Below are positions 55,646 to 63,299 of a DNA stretch of 64,000 nt, piece by piece. A model generated the notes under the pieces. It did no database searches. It was not told the origin of the DNA and saw only the letters and a program-made list of their open reading frames with translations. A program made the position numbers and the translations under genes. The DNA is from Cyclobacterium sp. (GTDB lineage: Bacteria; Bacteroidota; Bacteroidia; Cytophagales; Cyclobacteriaceae). The stretch's first letter is position 1. Every line of letters starts with the position of its first letter. Where the stretch lies: contig NZ_JABURL010000027.1 in assembly GCF_014762705.1 (NCBI RefSeq), forward strand, positions 1 to 64,000, read 5' to 3'.

Positions 55646-57739
55646 ATGGCAAATCAAAAAAATACAGTTCCCCCTATCGCAAAAATTAAGCCCACAAACC
55701 TTGAATTTCACCATCATACCCGAACAGACAATTATTTTTGGATGAAAGAGAGGGAAGACCCTGAAGTTATAGACTATCTCAATAAAGAAAACGAATTTAA
55801 AGAAAGATGCCTGGAACCTACCAAAACCTTGCAGAACAACCTTTTCAAAGAAATGAAAAACCGTATTAAGGAGGAGGATTCCAGCGTACCTTATTTTAAG
55901 AAAGGCTTTTTTTATTACCAAAGGTTTGAGAAAGGGAAAGAATATCCCATTCATTGCAGAAAAGAAGGTCAACTCTCAGCTGGGGAAAGTATTCTATTGG
56001 ATGTCAATAAACTGGCGAGGGGCAAAGCATACATGAATGTGAATGCCATGTCTGTTTCTCCAAATACTTACCTGCTTGCCTATGCAGCAGACGCTGTGGG
56101 GAGGAGGATTTATACCATCTATTTTAAAAACCTGACAACTGGTAAATTACTGGAAGACCAAATCAGTGAAGTTACCGGGAACGTGGTCTGGGCCAATGAC
56201 AACAACACATTGTTCTACAGCAAACAGGATTCACAAACCCTTCGGCCAAACCGGATTTTTAAACATATCCTTGGCAAAGACCAGGCGTCCGATGCACTAG
56301 TCTTCGAAGAGAAAGATGAAACATTTACGGTAAGCGTAAAAAAATCCAAATCCGGAAATTACCTTTTTATCAGTAGCAATAGTACTGTATCCACTGAATA
56401 CAGGTTCCTTTCAGCGGACAAGCCGGATGAAGACTGGAGGGTCATCCAGCCAAGGGAACGGGACCTGGAATACGAGGTGGATCACCACGAAGATTCCTTT
56501 ATCCTACTGACCAATGCCGATGGTGCAAAAAATTTTAAGTTGGTTAAAACTCCTGTGGAAGCACCTGGAAAATCAAATTGGGAGGATCTGGTTCCGGGAA
56601 GAGAGCATGTATTACTGGAAGAATTCGAAGTATTCCGGCACCATCTGGTGATCAGCAATCGTTTTAATGGTTTGAGCCGATTGGAAATAAGGTCATGGGA
56701 TGGTCAAAAAAATCATACCATCAGCATGCAGGACCCCACCTATTCGGTTTGGATCGGGAATAATCCCGAATACTATACCGACGTGCTTCGATATGGCTAT
56801 AACTCCCTTACTACCCCTTCATCCATCTACGATTATCACATGGACAGCCGGGAGAAGACCCTCATGAAACGTCAGGAAGTTGTAGGTGGGCACGATCCGG
56901 GAGATTATCAATCCGAACGAATTTGGGCTATGGCAGCGGATGGACAGGAAATACCAATTTCTTTGGTCTATAAAAAAGACAGGTTTACCAAAACAGGTGA
57001 AAATCCTTTGCTATTGTATGGATATGGTGCATATGGTTTCAGCACAGATCCCTATTTCAGTTCCAGCAGACTTAGTCTCCTGGACAGGGGAATAGTCTTT
57101 GCCATGGCTCATGTCAGGGGTGGACAGGAATTGGGTAGGCACTGGTATGAAGAGGGTAAAATGTTGCATAAAATCAACTCTTTCACGGATTTTATCACCT
57201 GTGGCGAACATTTGATCCAACAAAAATATGTACATCCCCAAAAGCTTTTTGCCATGGGAGGCAGCGCGGGAGGATTATTGGTTGGAGCGGTTATAAATAT
57301 GCGTCCAGATCTTTTTCATGGAGTAATAGCTGCTGTACCCTTTGTGGATGTTGTGACCACCATGCTGGATGAAAGTATCCCGCTCACCACAGGGGAATTT
57401 GATGAATGGGGGAATCCCAAAGATAAGATTTACTATGATTATATCCTTTCCTATTCGCCATACGACAATGTAAAGCCCCAGGCCTACCCGCATTTGCTGG
57501 TGACATCAGGATTTCATGATAGTCAGGTACAATATTGGGAGCCTTCAAAGTGGGTGGCCAAACTCAGGGCCTTACGAACCAATGACAACCTGTTGCTCTT
57601 ACACACCAATATGGAAGCAGGGCATGGGGGCGCCTCCGGACGGTTCAGGGCATTGAAAGAACTGGCCATGGAATATGCATTCATCCTGTGGTTATCAGAA
57701 GCGGAAAATCAGCCCGGAAATTCCACCGAAAATGGGTAA
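55646..57739 (+). CDS. Oligopeptidase B-like serine peptidase (S9A)
   Basis: Cytoplasmic prolyl-oligopeptidase-family enzyme of 697 residues cleaving short peptides, in this subgroup usually after Lys or Arg. The N-terminal propeller (about 75-410) gates the alpha/beta hydrolase domain. Catalytic Ser540 is in MGGSAGG, Asp is in the segment SGFHDSQVQYWEP and His in GHGGASG. The family motif EFDEWGNP is present. No signal peptide is seen. It lies 140 bases upstream of the Anbu operon and could remove peptides made there, but a separate transcript is likely. Confidence 0.92.
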   Translation: MANQKNTVPPIAKIKPTNLEFHHHTRTDNYFWMKEREDPEVIDYLNKENEFKERCLEPTKTLQNNLFKEMKNRIKEEDSSVPYFKKGFFYYQRFEKGKEYPIHCRKEGQLSAGESILLDVNKLARGKAYMNVNAMSVSPNTYLLAYAADAVGRRIYTIYFKNLTTGKLLEDQISEVTGNVVWANDNNTLFYSKQDSQTLRPNRIFKHILGKDQASDALVFEEKDETFTVSVKKSKSGNYLFISSNSTVSTEYRFLSADKPDEDWRVIQPRERDLEYEVDHHEDSFILLTNADGAKNFKLVKTPVEAPGKSNWEDLVPGREHVLLEEFEVFRHHLVISNRFNGLSRLEIRSWDGQKNHTISMQDPTYSVWIGNNPEYYTDVLRYGYNSLTTPSSIYDYHMDSREKTLMKRQEVVGGHDPGDYQSERIWAMAADGQEIPISLVYKKDRFTKTGENPLLLYGYGAYGFSTDPYFSSSRLSLLDRGIVFAMAHVRGGQELGRHWYEEGKMLHKINSFTDFITCGEHLIQQKYVHPQKLFAMGGSAGGLLVGAVINMRPDLFHGVIAAVPFVDVVTTMLDESIPLTTGEFDEWGNPKDKIYYDYILSYSPYDNVKPQAYPHLLVTSGFHDSQVQYWEPSKWVAKLRALRTNDNLLLLHTNMEAGHGGASGRFRALKELAMEYAFILWLSEAENQPGNSTENG

Positions 57740-57879: not shown

Positions 57880-59307
57880 ATGAAGGTAATCCACAACGAC
57901 CAACAGGCCTTTTATGATGAAATGTATCATGAAAATCATTCACTTAGAGACCATTACAAAAGTTTTGGGGAACTCATTAAAACCAGTTCCGCAAAAAAAC
58001 TGAGTCACCTTCAGTATTCCGCAGACAAGGCCCAGATGGCCATGGGCATGACATTCAATGTCTATCATGACAAAGCCGGTCAGGAGAAGATTCTGCACCT
58101 GGACATCATCCCAAGGATTATTCCAGGCAATGAATGGCTGATTCTGGAAAATGGGCTTAAACAAAGGATTGAGGCTTTGAATTTATTCCTTCATGATATT
58201 TACAATGATCAAAAAATTTTTAAAGACAATATAATTCCAAAGGAATTAATCCTGGGAAGTAAAGATTTCCTGAAGCCCTGTATAGGACTCACCCCTCCTA
58301 AGGGAATATGGTGCCACATCACCGGTACAGACCTGGTAAGAGATAAAGATGGTGATTTTTATGTACTCGAGGATAACCTCAGGTGCCCATCAGGTGTGTC
58401 TTACATGCTGGAAAGCAGAGAGATTATCAAGCGGGCTTTTCCGGAGCTGTTTAATAAGCTTGGGGTGAGACCAGTCTCGGATTACAGTACCAAACTGCTG
58501 GACATGTTGCAATACCTCTCCGATAAGCCAAAACCGGTCATCGGTGTATTGACACCTGGAGTATACAATTCGGCTTATTTTGAACATTCTTATCTGGCAC
58601 AACAGATGGGTGCCGAATTGGTTTCGGGCCAGGATCTCCTTGTGGTGGACAAAAAAGTATACATGCAAACCACAAAAGGTCTTGAACAAATAGATGTATT
58701 GTACCGAAGAATTGATGATACCTTCCTGGATCCATTGGCTTTTAATCCGGATTCTATGCTTGGGGTACCTGGCCTTTTTGATGCCTATAAGGCTGGCAAT
58801 ATCGCCCTGGCCAATGCCCCGGGCACAGGCGTGGCAGATGACAAAGCTGTTTATGCCTATGTGCCCAGGATTATCAAATACTACCTGAATCAGGAACCCA
58901 TTTTAAAAAACGTTCCCACCTATCTCTGTAGGGAGGAAAAAGACAGGAAGTATGTTTTGGACAATATTGCCGACCTGGTGGTCAAAGAAACCAATGCGGC
59001 AGGAGGCTATGGCATGCTCATTGGTCCCAAGTCAGATGCAACAGAACATGAAAAATTCAGGAAACTGATCAAAGCCAACCCAAAAAACTATATTGCCCAA
59101 CCCACACTTTCCCTATCCACCGTACCTTCCATTATTGACAACAAGGCTATCGAAGGTAGGCATGTGGATTTAAGGCCCTACATACTTTATGGCAAAGATA
59201 TAGAAGTGATTCCAGGAGCACTTACCAGGGTAGCACTCAAAAAGGGCTCCCTTGTGGTCAACAGCTCTCAGGGTGGTGGCAGCAAAGATACCTGGGTATT
59301 GTATTAA
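57880..59307 (+). CDS. Circularly permuted ATP-grasp type 2 protein (amide ligase-like)
   Basis: Protein of 475 residues of the circularly permuted ATP-grasp type 2 family. Family logic predicts it activates a carboxylate with ATP and joins it to an amine. A metal- and phosphate-binding segment, VLEDNLRCPSGVSYMLE, lies at about 162-178 (Glu164, Asp165, Asn166), and a glycine-rich loop KETNAAGGYGMLIGP at about 369-383. It opens a four-gene set: the alpha-E gene starts 15 bases after its stop, then Anbu and the transglutaminase-like gene. Proposed peptide or tag synthesis is based on comparative genomics, not on activity data. Confidence 0.9.
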   Translation: MKVIHNDQQAFYDEMYHENHSLRDHYKSFGELIKTSSAKKLSHLQYSADKAQMAMGMTFNVYHDKAGQEKILHLDIIPRIIPGNEWLILENGLKQRIEALNLFLHDIYNDQKIFKDNIIPKELILGSKDFLKPCIGLTPPKGIWCHITGTDLVRDKDGDFYVLEDNLRCPSGVSYMLESREIIKRAFPELFNKLGVRPVSDYSTKLLDMLQYLSDKPKPVIGVLTPGVYNSAYFEHSYLAQQMGAELVSGQDLLVVDKKVYMQTTKGLEQIDVLYRRIDDTFLDPLAFNPDSMLGVPGLFDAYKAGNIALANAPGTGVADDKAVYAYVPRIIKYYLNQEPILKNVPTYLCREEKDRKYVLDNIADLVVKETNAAGGYGMLIGPKSDATEHEKFRKLIKANPKNYIAQPTLSLSTVPSIIDNKAIEGRHVDLRPYILYGKDIEVIPGALTRVALKKGSLVVNSSQGGGSKDTWVLY

Positions 59308-59322
59308 CCAAGAACAACCGAT

Positions 59323-60303
59323 ATGTTAAGTAGAGTAGCGAATTCGATTTATTGGCTGGGCAGGTACCTGGAAAGGGCCGAAAATTATGCCCGGTTTATT
59401 GATGTCAATTTTAACCTGATGCTGGATCTTCCCGGTGACCTGAAAGAACAATGGGAACCACTCGTCATGGCCACAGGAGACAAAGACCTTTTCCAGGCCA
59501 CAAACAAATCCTACGACATGCAGGAGGTCATCTATTTCCTCGCTTTTAGTGAGGAAAATCCCAATTCCCTGATCAGTTCTATTTCGAAAGCCAGGGAAAA
59601 TGCGCGGATGGTTCGGGAAAACCTCAGCAAGGAAACCTGGGAAAAGCTGAATGAAACCTATCATTTTGTAAAAAAGGCCTCAGAAAACAAAACCTGGAAA
59701 AAGGAAGACCCGAGAAGTTTCTTTGAAAGTGTAAAATCCCAGATCCTGCTGTTGTATGGACTTGCAGACAGCACGGTGGCCAGAACAGAGGGATGGTATT
59801 TCAGACAGCTTGGCCAGTACCTGGAAAGGGCTGACAAAACTTCCAGAATACTTGATGTTAAATACCACATCCTGCTCCCCTCTCCAAAGGAAGTAGGCTC
59901 ACCGCTTGACTTCCTTCATTGGATGGCCTTGTTAAAATCGGTTACGGCATTCAACACCTACAGGAGACTTTACGGTAACATCGACCCATCCGGGGTGGTG
60001 GAGTTCCTCGTACTGAACAAATACTTTCCAAGATCTGTGTTCTTTTGCCTTAAAGAAGCTGAACAGAGTCTTTTTAAAATATCAGGGTCAAATGGTGACG
60101 GTTATTCCAATAAAGCGGAAAAATCAATTGGTGAATTACGGTCCAAACTGGAGTTTGATGATGTCAATGACATCATTGCCACTGGGCTTCATGAATACCT
60201 GGAGCATCTTCAGGTTAAAATCAATCATATATCGAATCAGATAAACGACAATTATTTCCAAATAAAAGATAACTTTGTAAGCCAAACCATGGAGCAAGGA
60301 TGA
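59323..60303 (+). CDS. Alpha-E domain protein (DUF403)
   Basis: All-helical protein of 326 residues. It begins MLSRVANSIYWLGRYLERAE, the hallmark of the alpha-E domain, and repeats this pattern internally (WYFRQLGQYLERADKTSRIL). The biochemical role is unknown; it always accompanies the permuted ATP-grasp protein, so it probably holds its substrate or complex. It overlaps the Anbu start by 4 bases (ATGA) and lies 15 bases after the ATP-grasp gene, consistent with one operon. Confidence 0.92.
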   Translation: MLSRVANSIYWLGRYLERAENYARFIDVNFNLMLDLPGDLKEQWEPLVMATGDKDLFQATNKSYDMQEVIYFLAFSEENPNSLISSISKARENARMVRENLSKETWEKLNETYHFVKKASENKTWKKEDPRSFFESVKSQILLLYGLADSTVARTEGWYFRQLGQYLERADKTSRILDVKYHILLPSPKEVGSPLDFLHWMALLKSVTAFNTYRRLYGNIDPSGVVEFLVLNKYFPRSVFFCLKEAEQSLFKISGSNGDGYSNKAEKSIGELRSKLEFDDVNDIIATGLHEYLEHLQVKINHISNQINDNYFQIKDNFVSQTMEQG

Positions 60304-61040
60304 CATTTTGTATTGGAATAAAAACGAAGAACGGGATCGTTGGTTTATCGGACACCAGAATAACCTCAGGAAATGAGACGACCACCTCAAAAAAATTATA
60401 TACAGTAAACAGAAAAAAGCACGCTTTCTTTATCATGACTTCAGGACTTCGTTCAGTAAGGGACAAGGCCATCACCTATTTTGGCGAACTGATTGAAAAA
60501 GAAGATGCCTCTTATGATAAATTGTACAAAGCTGTCAATGGATTTGCCGATCAGGTGAAGCGGGTGGCGGAAGAGGACATGAATTCCCTGGAAAAATCGG
60601 GCTTTTCTTTTAATCTCTTCTCCATCATTGGTGGTCAACTGGAAGAAGACAAGGAACCCAAACTTTACCTCCTATATCCGCAGGGCAATTGGATAGAAAT
60701 CAGGCAGGGAACACCCTTTGTCATTATTGGCAATACGGGCTTTGGGAATCCTGTGCTCAGAAGATCATTGAAATATGATGCCCCGCTTTATTTTGCACTT
60801 AAAAGTGCTTTCCTTGCTTTCGATGCCACCAGGATCAGTTCCAATGATGTAGATTACCCCGTGGACACTGTGGTCATGGAGAACGATAGCTATAATATTA
60901 TTGAAAACAGATTCGAGCAACATGAATTAAACCATTTGTCTGAATTCTGGAACGATTCCTTAAAAGAAACCATTAACAACTTGCCGGCTGACATCCTGAA
61001 AAAAGCCTTTTCTCATGTAGAATTAGAAGAAAGTGAATAG
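60300..61040 (+). CDS. Anbu, proteasome-related peptidase
   Basis: Proteasome-fold Ntn hydrolase of 246 residues (ancestral beta subunit). The predicted nucleophile is Thr2, exposed by removal of Met1 (MTFCIGIK), with Asp18 in LSDTRITSG and Lys31/Lys32 filling the proteasome Asp17 and Lys33 positions. The fold continues with FFIMTSGLRSVRDKA and FNLFSIIGG. Anbu is not part of ordinary 20S proteasomes and no regulatory ATPase is nearby. It overlaps the alpha-E gene by 4 bases and precedes the transglutaminase gene by 61 bases. The substrate is unknown. Confidence 0.93.
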   Translation: MTFCIGIKTKNGIVGLSDTRITSGNETTTSKKLYTVNRKKHAFFIMTSGLRSVRDKAITYFGELIEKEDASYDKLYKAVNGFADQVKRVAEEDMNSLEKSGFSFNLFSIIGGQLEEDKEPKLYLLYPQGNWIEIRQGTPFVIIGNTGFGNPVLRRSLKYDAPLYFALKSAFLAFDATRISSNDVDYPVDTVVMENDSYNIIENRFEQHELNHLSEFWNDSLKETINNLPADILKKAFSHVELEESE

Positions 61041-61101
61041 GTGCCACAGCACTTGAGACCAATTGATGCGAGGTTTCCTTTTTAAAATTAAACGACAAAC
61101 C

Positions 61102-61959
61102 ATGCGTCTGAAAATCCAACACGAAACCATTTATGATTACCACAAGTCTGTAGGACTAAACCCCCACAGCATCTTTCTCAAACCCTTGACCAGAAACTAT
61201 CTGGAAATAAGCAATTACCGCTTACAGGTACAACCTGAACCTGAAGGATTGATTGAAAGATATGACATAGAAGGCAACCCCTATTTTCAGGCCTGGTTTA
61301 CGGGAGAAACCACCATGCTTGCCATAAAGGTATCTTTTGAGACAGTGCATATACCATTCAATCCTTTTCTGTTTTTGGTGGATCAATGGTTCATCAATAA
61401 ACTCGATTTGTCTGCAAACACCCCCTTTCAATACCTGCAGGAGGACCTGCCTATACTTCAGGCCTACCTGGGTCACAGCGACAATGCACTGCTCAGAAAG
61501 TACGGTATGGATAAATTGACTACCAGGGATCCCATACAATTTTTGACACAGTTAAATGCCGCCATTCATGCCGACTGGCGCCACATCATCAGAGAAGAGG
61601 AAAATCTCTGGCCAGCCACCAAAACCTTTGCTGCGGGAAGAGGCTCCTGCAGGGATCTGTCCTGGATGTTGATAGAAATCCTCAGACATTTGGGCCTGGC
61701 GGCAAGATTTGTAAGTGGCTATGCCTTTAATCCCGAACTGGATGAAGGCCACGAACTGCATGCATGGGTGGAAACTTTCCTTCCAGGTGCTGGCTGGGTA
61801 GGACTGGATCCGAGTCTGGGACTAATGACCGATGAACACTACATTCCTCTGGCCTGTAGTTTTCTTCCTCAAAAAACTTTGCCTGTACATGGCACTTATG
61901 GTGGCGAAAATCTGCAAGCAGCCACCTTATCGGCCACAGTCAAGATTGAGGCCTTCTAA
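61102..61959 (+). CDS. Transglutaminase-like cysteine peptidase of the Anbu operon
   Basis: Protein of 285 residues with a beta-rich N-terminal domain (about 1-90, MRLKIQHETIYDYHKSVGLN ... LKPLTRNYLEISNYRLQV) followed by the transglutaminase/papain-like core. The catalytic triad is Cys183 (GRGSCRDLSW), His220 (HAWVE) and Asp236 (GLDPSLG). ATG 61102 starts the conserved N terminus; 61063 would add 13 unconserved residues. In known Anbu operons such proteins are thought to cleave or transfer peptide bonds. No signal peptide is seen. Confidence 0.92.
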   Translation: MRLKIQHETIYDYHKSVGLNPHSIFLKPLTRNYLEISNYRLQVQPEPEGLIERYDIEGNPYFQAWFTGETTMLAIKVSFETVHIPFNPFLFLVDQWFINKLDLSANTPFQYLQEDLPILQAYLGHSDNALLRKYGMDKLTTRDPIQFLTQLNAAIHADWRHIIREEENLWPATKTFAAGRGSCRDLSWMLIEILRHLGLAARFVSGYAFNPELDEGHELHAWVETFLPGAGWVGLDPSLGLMTDEHYIPLACSFLPQKTLPVHGTYGGENLQAATLSATVKIEAF

Positions 61960-62054: not shown

Positions 62055-63299
62055 ATGCGTAAAGTGGGGGGCTCCATATTCATTATTATTCTAATGGCTG
62101 TACTGTTTTTCCTGAACTGGTATGTATACCAGGCTGTGAAAACGGTATTGCCACACAGTATTCTGGCCACAGGTAAAATGATCTATTGGTTAGTTGCCAG
62201 TGGCGTCAGCCTTTGGATAGGTTTTACTTTTTTCACCATCATGCAGGAGGGTAAAATCTCCACCATGTCCCAAAAATCCCTAAACCTTTTTCTTACCATT
62301 TCCGTGACGCAGTTTACCGTTATTCTCTTTCTTTTTGGAGAAGACATATACCGTTCACTGAGTTCTTTGTTCGGTTATATGACATCCTCCGAACCTGGCA
62401 GCAGTGCAGTCCTCCCCTCCCGGAGGAAGTTTGTGAGTCAATTGGCTTTTTCTATAGCAGCCATTCCTTTCACAGGATTTGTCTATGGCATATTCAAAGG
62501 AAAATATGATTTTAGAACGATCCGGAAAACAGTCTTCTTTAAAGATCTACCGGAGGCATTCGATGGATTCACCATCACCCAATTGTCAGATATTCATGCC
62601 GGTAGTTTTACTGATTTTGATGCTGTAAAAAGAGGGGCTGACCTGGCCGCAGCTCAAAACTCAGATCTGTTTGTGTTCACAGGAGATCTGGTAAACCACA
62701 AAGCAGATGAAATTGATCCTATGATTGCATCTTTTGCCCAGATAAAGGCCCCTTTTGGGCAATTTTCCATTTTGGGCAATCATGATTATGGTGATTACAC
62801 TTCCTGGCCAAGCCCTAAAGCCAAACAAGAAAACTTTGATAGGCTTAAAGAAAAACACAAAAAGCTGGGCTATGACCTGCTGTTGGATGAAAGCAGAATT
62901 ATCGAAAAGCAAGGGCAAAGAATCAGGTTGTTGGGTGTAGAAAACTGGGGTGTTGGCTTTCATGCCAAAGGAGATCTGGAAAAATCCCTTGAAAATGTAG
63001 ACAAGGATGAATTCAAAATTTTACTTTCACATGACCCTTCCCATTGGGACGAGCAGGTTAAAAATCATTCCAAAAACATCCATTTGACTTTAAGTGGTCA
63101 TACCCACGGGATGCAGTTTGGTATAGAAACCCCTGTTATCCGCTGGTCTCCTGCCCAATACCGGTATCCTAACTGGGCTGGACTGGCCGAAGAGGCAGGC
63201 AAGTTCCTTTATGTCAACAGGGGCTTTGGCTTCCACGCCTTCTCCGGAAGAGTAGGTATCTGGCCGGAAATTACCGTCATTGAACTAAGAAAGGGTTAA
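62055..63299 (+). CDS. Membrane metallophosphoesterase (YkuE-like)
   Basis: Protein of 414 residues with N-terminal transmembrane helices (about 7-27, 37-60, 75-95 and probably 127-147) and a calcineurin-like phosphoesterase domain (about 165-412). Metal-binding motifs are QLSDIHAG, TGDLVNH, GNHDYGDY, LSHDP and SGHTHGMQFG, all intact. The active site probably faces the periplasm. Related enzymes hydrolyse lipid or cell-envelope phosphoesters. It starts 95 bases after the transglutaminase gene and may or may not belong to that operon. Confidence 0.9.
   Translation: MRKVGGSIFIIILMAVLFFLNWYVYQAVKTVLPHSILATGKMIYWLVASGVSLWIGFTFFTIMQEGKISTMSQKSLNLFLTISVTQFTVILFLFGEDIYRSLSSLFGYMTSSEPGSSAVLPSRRKFVSQLAFSIAAIPFTGFVYGIFKGKYDFRTIRKTVFFKDLPEAFDGFTITQLSDIHAGSFTDFDAVKRGADLAAAQNSDLFVFTGDLVNHKADEIDPMIASFAQIKAPFGQFSILGNHDYGDYTSWPSPKAKQENFDRLKEKHKKLGYDLLLDESRIIEKQGQRIRLLGVENWGVGFHAKGDLEKSLENVDKDEFKILLSHDPSHWDEQVKNHSKNIHLTLSGHTHGMQFGIETPVIRWSPAQYRYPNWAGLAEEAGKFLYVNRGFGFHAFSGRVGIWPEITVIELRKG

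Follow-up and report, generated by a model that had tools for sequence, protein, structure and literature searches.

What does a proteasome-like protein do when it is encoded in one run with an ATP-grasp ligase, an Alpha-E protein and a transglutaminase-fold protein (TG)? The question is raised by the proteasome-like Anbu protein and its neighbours on a 64,000-nucleotide stretch of Cyclobacterium sp. (NZ_JABURL010000027.1, positions 1 to 64,000, hereafter the window), located on contig C76 of a 6.08 Mb draft genome in 125 contigs. A sequence-only reading of the window had suggested a complete conjugation-cleavage system distinct from the 20S proteasome. Our analysis identified the locus, with near certainty, as an Anbu operon in its Anbu-2 form, which is a further case of a published operon type and not a new kind. 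Across the genomes compared, ATP-grasp, Alpha-E and TG form a constant core, and Anbu is an optional add-on. The operon type is described by Valas & Bourne 2008 and Iyer 2009 (both as cited in later papers), Fuchs 2017 (PMC5666114) and Piasecka 2017 (PMC6376114), cited here, like all literature below, from the accessible parts of the text. To this picture we add the nested distribution of Anbu, a gene order rule, a link to Peptidase_Mx and a duplication within Alpha-E. No report of the nesting, order rule or duplication was found in the accessible parts of the open-access literature (including PMC5666114, PMC6376114, PMC8665760, PMC12096838, PMC12316311, PMC8407117, PMC11957791 and PMC3597751, with Iyer 2009 not covered), and none of the Peptidase_Mx link was met in the same literature, in which no search was aimed at Peptidase_Mx.

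Composition of the operon

The features of the locus, all on the + strand, are as follows (E, expectation value).

57880-59307, +, ATP-grasp, circularly permuted ligase (CP_ATPgrasp_2), 475 amino acids; PF14403 E 7.7e-167, 3n6x E 1.9e-165
59323-60303, +, Alpha-E protein, 326 amino acids; PF04168 E 3.4e-104, AlphaFold2 model all-helical
59323-59760, +, Alpha-E repeat unit 1, residues 1-146, with Glu17-Arg18; from profile alignment of the halves
59776-60237, +, Alpha-E repeat unit 2, residues 152-305, with Glu168-Arg169; from profile alignment of the halves and the model
60300-61040, +, Anbu, subtype Anbu-2, 246 amino acids; five solved Anbu sequences and the subtype-2 motif
60303-60305, +, Anbu Thr2 codon (mature Thr1, the nucleophile); 76/76 Anbu sequences
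60351-60353, +, Anbu Asp18 codon (mature Asp17); 76/76
60393-60395, +, Anbu Lys32 codon (mature Lys31, equivalent to Lys32/33 in other Anbu proteins and proteasomes); 76/76
60450-60461, +, Anbu Arg51-Arg54 (mature 50 and 53), S1 pocket region; alignment, pocket after PMC5666114
61102-61959 (alternative TTG start 61063), +, TG, transglutaminase fold (Bact_transglu_N and Transglut_core), 285 amino acids; PF08379 E 4.2e-16, PF01841 E 6.6e-15
61648-61650, +, TG Cys183 codon; 15/15 invariant
61759-61761, +, TG His220 codon; 15/15 invariant
61807-61809, +, TG Asp236 codon; 15/15 invariant

Open reading frame coordinates and a Pfam scan place the four genes at 57880-61959, adjacent and in the same direction, the arrangement by which an Anbu operon is recognized. 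ATP-grasp and Alpha-E are 15 bases apart (59308-59322), Alpha-E and Anbu overlap by 4 bases (ATGA at 60300-60303), and, with ATG 61102 taken as the start of TG, 61 bases (61041-61101) separate it from Anbu; the mechanical reading frame begins at TTG 61063, and aligned homologues start at the product of ATG 61102. Terminator-like sites were absent from the gaps, and their number in the region (6, versus 5.3 expected from shuffles) was neither in excess nor in deficit. Although the Pfam call for Anbu was weak (PF00227 E 3.9e-8), its identity is settled because five distinct solved Anbu sequences match it, at E values from 1.7e-29 (5loy) to 3.4e-23, with 5lox at 6.8e-25. The sequence-only reading had given the same spacing (15, -4 and 61) and the same four identities, together with an intact Anbu Thr2 and a complete TG triad; coordinates, Pfam, the solved Anbu sequences and the alignments described below bear out each of these. 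Its separation from the 20S proteasome also holds, as the genome encodes no alpha and beta subunits of a 20S proteasome and has only two PF00227 matches, Anbu and one HslV. Since ATP-grasp, Alpha-E, Anbu and PF08379 TG each have a single match in this genome, single gene deletions would meet no obvious covering paralogue.

Anbu is nested within a constant core

Three samples were compared: 98 genomes (62 genera) of the window's order, 198 genomes of its phylum and 150 Pseudomonadota. In the order, Alpha-E occurred in 40/98 genomes and ATP-grasp in the same 40. TG was detected by PF08379 in 39/98 (37 above the cut-off), all inside the 40, and in the fortieth, G016, a TG adjoins Alpha-E (L035). 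Anbu, sought with its own profile, was present in 29/98, every one inside the 40, so that all four families occur together in 29. Eleven Alpha-E genomes are without Anbu (G016, G017, G018, G049, G064, G072, G078, G079, G087, G092 and G097), of which a few may reflect assembly gaps, as G092 is 83% and G097 93% complete and G017 is in 720 contigs. By genus, Anbu (19/62) is again fully nested in Alpha-E (29/62). In the phylum, Alpha-E reached 77/198 above the cut-off (78 at E 0.001) and Anbu 16/198, all inside the 77; 41 of the 61 Alpha-E genomes lacking Anbu there belong to one family, f35, and are not independent. Pseudomonadota gave 83/150 for Alpha-E and 53/150 for Anbu (counting G465, a 43-residue piece), of which 52 were nested, the exception being G410. 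The union of the samples, of which those of the order and the phylum have five Anbu genomes in common, contains 93 Anbu genomes, 92 of them with Alpha-E. Fisher tests of Anbu against Alpha-E returned 3.7e-16 (order), 9.6e-8 (phylum) and 3.4e-17 (Pseudomonadota), values which, like the counts, overstate independence since genomes within the samples are related. Among 31 genomes with named loci, hand-picked from 80 found via Alpha-E, 22 have Anbu. In G410, an orphan Anbu-1-like gene lies at L170:6035-6775.

The nesting points to a one-way dependence, of Anbu on the ligase set, and favours a functional tie between the two. The recurrent four-gene set of the sequence-only reading is thus upheld as a recurrence beyond chance, with co-conservation in related genomes, but not as one fixed unit: Anbu is optional (29/40), a relative carries only its remnant, and the genes are scattered in some others. 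The remnant lies at L021:5637-5859 in G097, in a 222-base gap between intact Alpha-E and TG. Both Anbu ends are recognizable (32 residues at 50% and 27 at 44%) and the middle is gone; the pieces score 32.0 and 30.0 bits, versus at most 26.6 in 200 shuffles, the would-be Thr is Asn, and the second piece contains a stop. L157, the tree sister of L021, has Anbu. An Alpha-E tree with 58 rows, built by a quick method and with several long branches, requires at least 11 changes in Anbu presence, at least 7 of them forced by well-supported branches, and shuffled labels require 17 on average; Anbu presence is clustered on this tree but not fixed. The set persists in scattered form in G029, where one 7.0 Mb contig carries the ATP-grasp gene at 1.18 Mb, those for Anbu and TG together at 3.68 Mb and that for Alpha-E at 4.48 Mb. 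In G045, G059 and G073, the 13 kb read around Alpha-E held no other member of the set.

Anbu active site and subtype

Thr2, Asp18 and Lys32, the residues that characterize Anbu, are kept in all 76 collected Anbu sequences longer than 200 amino acids, and removal of Met would expose the Thr nucleophile. Arg occupies residues 51 and 54 (window numbering) in 43/43 Anbu-2 and 0/33 Anbu-1 sequences; in the latter, residue 51 is Leu (33/33) and residue 54 Ser or Thr (33/33). Since residue 51 itself served to split the subtypes, independent support comes from residues 54-56 only, and Arg54, Asp55 and Lys56 accompany Arg51 in all 43 Anbu-2. The window protein carries the subtype-2 signature, Arg51 with Arg54. 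Fuchs 2017 argued that the basic S1 pocket of Anbu-2 is suited to acidic residues, and reported that Cytophaga hutchinsonii Anbu-2 (CHU_3460) was unmodified by epoxomicin or MG132 (PMC5666114). The window protein resembles CHU_3460 in being an Anbu-2 with such a pocket and differs in having Ser29 where Ala29 is printed.

That pocket is printed as I20-A29-R46-R50-T53 (PMC5666114). In our alignment, mature residue 53 is Arg in 43/43 Anbu-2, whereas at mature residue 46 there is Thr in 40, Cys in 2 and Asn in 1. The Anbu gene at L044:5125-5856 in genome G076, probably that of C. hutchinsonii, likewise reads Thr46 and Arg53. Because all 43 Anbu-2 have Arg53 and none Arg46, the printed letters R46 and T53 may have been swapped. 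The L044 run consists of ATP-grasp, Alpha-E and Anbu with no TG, whereas the window has TG. Separately, the Anbu of G050 (L014:5186-5899) is C-terminally shorter, with a profile match that crossed one TAA.

TG keeps its triad while its sequence changes

The TG profile matches 3isr (E 3.4e-72) and also peptide N-glycanase (E 0.0011). Cys183, His220 and Asp236 are invariant in 15/15 aligned sequences, as in transglutaminase-like enzymes, and the Cys-His-Asp triad is kept in 103/107 short TGs; the four without it in full are in L073, L142, L147 and L084. The L147 protein sits in an Alpha-E/Anbu locus, and the L084 protein has a gap at the Asp column and no partner gene nearby. In L073 (10022-10879) Asn replaces the catalytic Cys beside an intact Anbu, in a metagenome assembly where an error is possible. 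Across seven close loci (21 pairs for each family), the mean identity of TG (49%) lay far below those of ATP-grasp (75%), Alpha-E (70%) and Anbu (72%). Such fast change with the triad kept would fit an enzyme that meets a varying partner.

ATP-grasp and the duplicated Alpha-E

The window's ATP-grasp protein covers PF14403 from end to end (1-374 of 374) and is a type 2 member of the circularly permuted ATP-grasp proteins; 3n6x (E 1.9e-165) was its only clear solved relative, and a search with a family profile added none. Alpha-E is built of two duplicated halves, each of which retains its Glu-Arg motif. Its halves (1-146 and 152-305) align with a probability of 99.6, E 5.5e-25 and a score of 149.5, versus a top score of 20.6 for 30 column-shuffled profiles. 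An AlphaFold2 model from 55 sequences (mean predicted local distance difference test 92.8, predicted template modelling score 0.91) places seven helices in each unit, in the same order. Among 138 unfused rows, Glu17, Arg18 and Glu168 are kept in 138 each and Arg169 in 136; the 22 fused rows keep them in 18, 21, 21 and 19, respectively. The Alpha-E profile matched no solved sequence at E 10, and fold comparison returned common helical arrangements only. We read Alpha-E as a partner of the ligase with two-fold pseudo-symmetry; some loci encode natural ATP-grasp~Alpha-E fusions (for example L051, L075 and L104). In several genomes (L051, L053-L056, L145, L148 and L149) a second system, consisting of large TG, ATP-grasp~Alpha-E fusion and TG in that order, accompanies the unfused set; in the window's genome, ATP-grasp and Alpha-E are each matched only once.

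Gene order and a second optional hydrolase

Among loci with all four genes in one run, 14, the window included, have the order ATP-grasp, Alpha-E, Anbu-2, TG, and 23 have ATP-grasp, Alpha-E, TG, Anbu-1. Exceptions are L026, L036, L042, L063 and L065, where TG precedes Anbu-2, and L102 and L105, where a large TG follows Anbu-1. The published Anbu operon has the same four families, the same active-site residues and, in the accessible text, no AAA+ gene; its usual Anbu-1 order places TG before Anbu, whereas in the window TG comes last. The solved Anbu structures named in that literature are Anbu-1 or of unassigned subtype, in contrast to the Anbu-2 of the window.

In seven loci a gene for Peptidase_Mx, a putative zinc peptidase that also has a zinc ribbon, lies 7-255 bases from a core gene; six were found by neighbour clustering and seven by profile, with Pfam checked for 4/7. 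These genes, each adjoining core genes, are:

L041:8265-9440
L136:9134-10210
L143:5227-6498
L144:1965-3077
L145:9031-10104
L148:9130-10272
L149:9006-10064

Peptidase_Mx was present in 21/150 Pseudomonadota, 20 of them inside the 83 Alpha-E genomes and one, G402, outside (Fisher 2.9e-5). Replacement of Anbu by Peptidase_Mx was rejected, since among those 83 genomes Anbu occurs in 15/20 with Peptidase_Mx versus 37/63 without it (p 0.29); Peptidase_Mx neither replaces nor follows Anbu. Because Peptidase_Mx is tied to Alpha-E genomes, as Anbu is, the two appear to be unrelated hydrolases that are optional additions to one core.

Proposed mechanism and its rivals

We propose that ATP-grasp and Alpha-E would activate a carboxylate with ATP and form an amide bond, yielding a peptide-like product, or else a protein or small molecule extended by a peptide. 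TG, as a cysteine enzyme, would then act on this amide product by transfer or cleavage, and Anbu-2, an accessory threonine hydrolase, would trim or remove it, presumably preferring acidic residues before the cut (after Fuchs 2017), so that ATP-grasp and Anbu-2 might work like the ligase-plus-protease pair RimK/RimB. The chemistry, the substrates, the directions of the reactions, the acidic preference and the likeness to RimK/RimB are what we infer here, and we give this reading a probability of roughly 45%. In its favour are the gene families with their intact active sites, the constant core, the nested occurrence of Anbu with its changes on the Alpha-E tree and its remnant in L021, the persistence of the set in scattered form, the tie of Peptidase_Mx to Alpha-E genomes, the two S1-region arginines together with the published pocket argument, and RimK/RimB as a precedent. 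The hypothesis of conjugation and cleavage goes back to Iyer 2009, as cited in later papers. The sequence-only reading was right that the set has no established product. A farther-reaching version, which we consider doubtful, would make the core an old stand-alone amide-modification system, with the two Glu-Arg sites of Alpha-E in the active machinery of the ligase and with hydrolases plugged in by lineage (Anbu or Peptidase_Mx), Anbu-2 trimming an acidic product. On that version Anbu-2 would be, to our knowledge, the first proteasome-family eraser of a modification in bacteria and not a protein degrader.

Several observations weigh against the proposed mechanism. Many genomes would make the core product with no Anbu to trim it, and the relatedness of genomes noted above tempers the statistics. 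G410 has no Alpha-E match, and the other three families are absent from the 16 kb read around its Anbu gene. Sequence searches gave no ATP-grasp relative of known substrate. Three TGs are clearly without the triad; one adjoins Anbu, and another belongs to an Alpha-E/Anbu locus. An ATP-grasp protein from an Anbu operon does release phosphate from ATP, which speaks for the mechanism, but the release was not raised by Glu or Gln, which leaves ligation and plain ATP hydrolysis undistinguished (PMC6376114). According to the accessible text of the same paper, the Anbu proteins assayed left standard peptide substrates uncut, and a pull-down of Anbu gave no specific partner and no complex. Finally, Fuchs 2017 preferred Anbu as a protein-degrading machine and deemed a role in peptide synthesis less likely (PMC5666114).

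If Anbu were a general protein degrader like HslV that shares an operon with an unrelated ligase set by chance, its proteasome-like active site would be explained, as would the binding of epoxomicin and MG132 to Pa-Anbu, for which Thr1 is required (PMC5666114). The nested distribution speaks for an eraser or trimmer rather than a machine for general degradation: Anbu occurs without Alpha-E in 1/93 genomes, even where the genes are scattered. As the window's genome already has HslV, and an unfoldase partner for Anbu is not known in the accessible literature, we judge this quite unlikely. A different possibility, which we find rather unlikely, is that ATP-grasp and Alpha-E make a free di- or oligopeptide-like metabolite, perhaps a nitrogen store, which TG and Anbu degrade for nitrogen, with no protein tagged. 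The pairing of a synthetase with a papain-like hydrolase recalls glutathionylspermidine synthetase/amidase and counts in its favour. Anbu is also raised on nitrogen limitation in Pseudomonas putida (PMC5666114, PMC6376114), COG3484 is over-represented among the predicted targets of sigma-54 in Proteobacteria (PMC12316311), and marine metagenomes show these domains clustered with urea metabolism (PMC3597751). However, these nitrogen links come from the literature, our analysis names no metabolite, and the divergence of TG (49% versus 70-75% in the seven close loci) better fits a changing protein partner.

TG might instead be the conjugating enzyme, crosslinking via glutamine side chains, with ATP-grasp supplying a precursor and Anbu reversing the crosslink. 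The full triad in 103/107 short TGs and the presence of TG with the core in all 40 genomes of the order speak for this, but the TG sequence changes fast, the triad is missing from TG in a few loci, and the match to peptide N-glycanase leaves the direction of the reaction undecided, so that we hold it to be very improbable.

Comparison with known systems

RimK is an ATP-grasp enzyme, but it lies outside the circularly permuted family. RimK/RimB puts glutamate tails on a ribosomal protein and trims them, and resembles the proposed mechanism, by analogy only, in that a dedicated protease trims the product of a ligase; in E. coli the ligase is present but not the protease (PMC11957791). It differs in that RimB is an aspartic protease and the product is known, and the accessible text of that paper names no Alpha-E or TG. 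HslV and the 20S proteasome share with Anbu the proteasome fold and the Thr-Asp-Lys active site; in contrast, Anbu is described as forming open split rings with no unfoldase known from the accessible literature. In sequence, the window protein matches Anbu structures at E 1.7e-29, whereas ordinary 20S subunits reach at best E 0.13. Glutathionylspermidine synthetase/amidase pairs an amide-forming ATP-grasp enzyme with a cysteine amidase, and 3n6x, the solved protein closest to the window's ATP-grasp, bears that name as 'putative'. A search with a profile of the window's ATP-grasp family turned up no other clear solved relative.

Neighbouring genes and a further proteasome-like match

The scanned neighbours of the operon in the window are ordinary (RNase III, NAD synthase, Lgt, Omp85, BipA and MscL). 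The flanking S9 peptidase (55646-57739) and metallophosphoesterase (62055-63299) were rejected as partners, as each was matched (E 1e-4) only in the window's own locus, L001, among 69 loci (L001-L069). For other neighbours, clustering across loci gave mostly synteny of close relatives; the largest cluster, of 18 loci, is ABC-transporter-like by eye and lies a median of 4 kb away. Elsewhere in the order, a 1.6 Mb genome contains a PF00227 match of 164.7 bits (G084:C45:3271-3804), clearly above HslV-level matches, which is possibly a true proteasome subunit or derives from a foreign contig.

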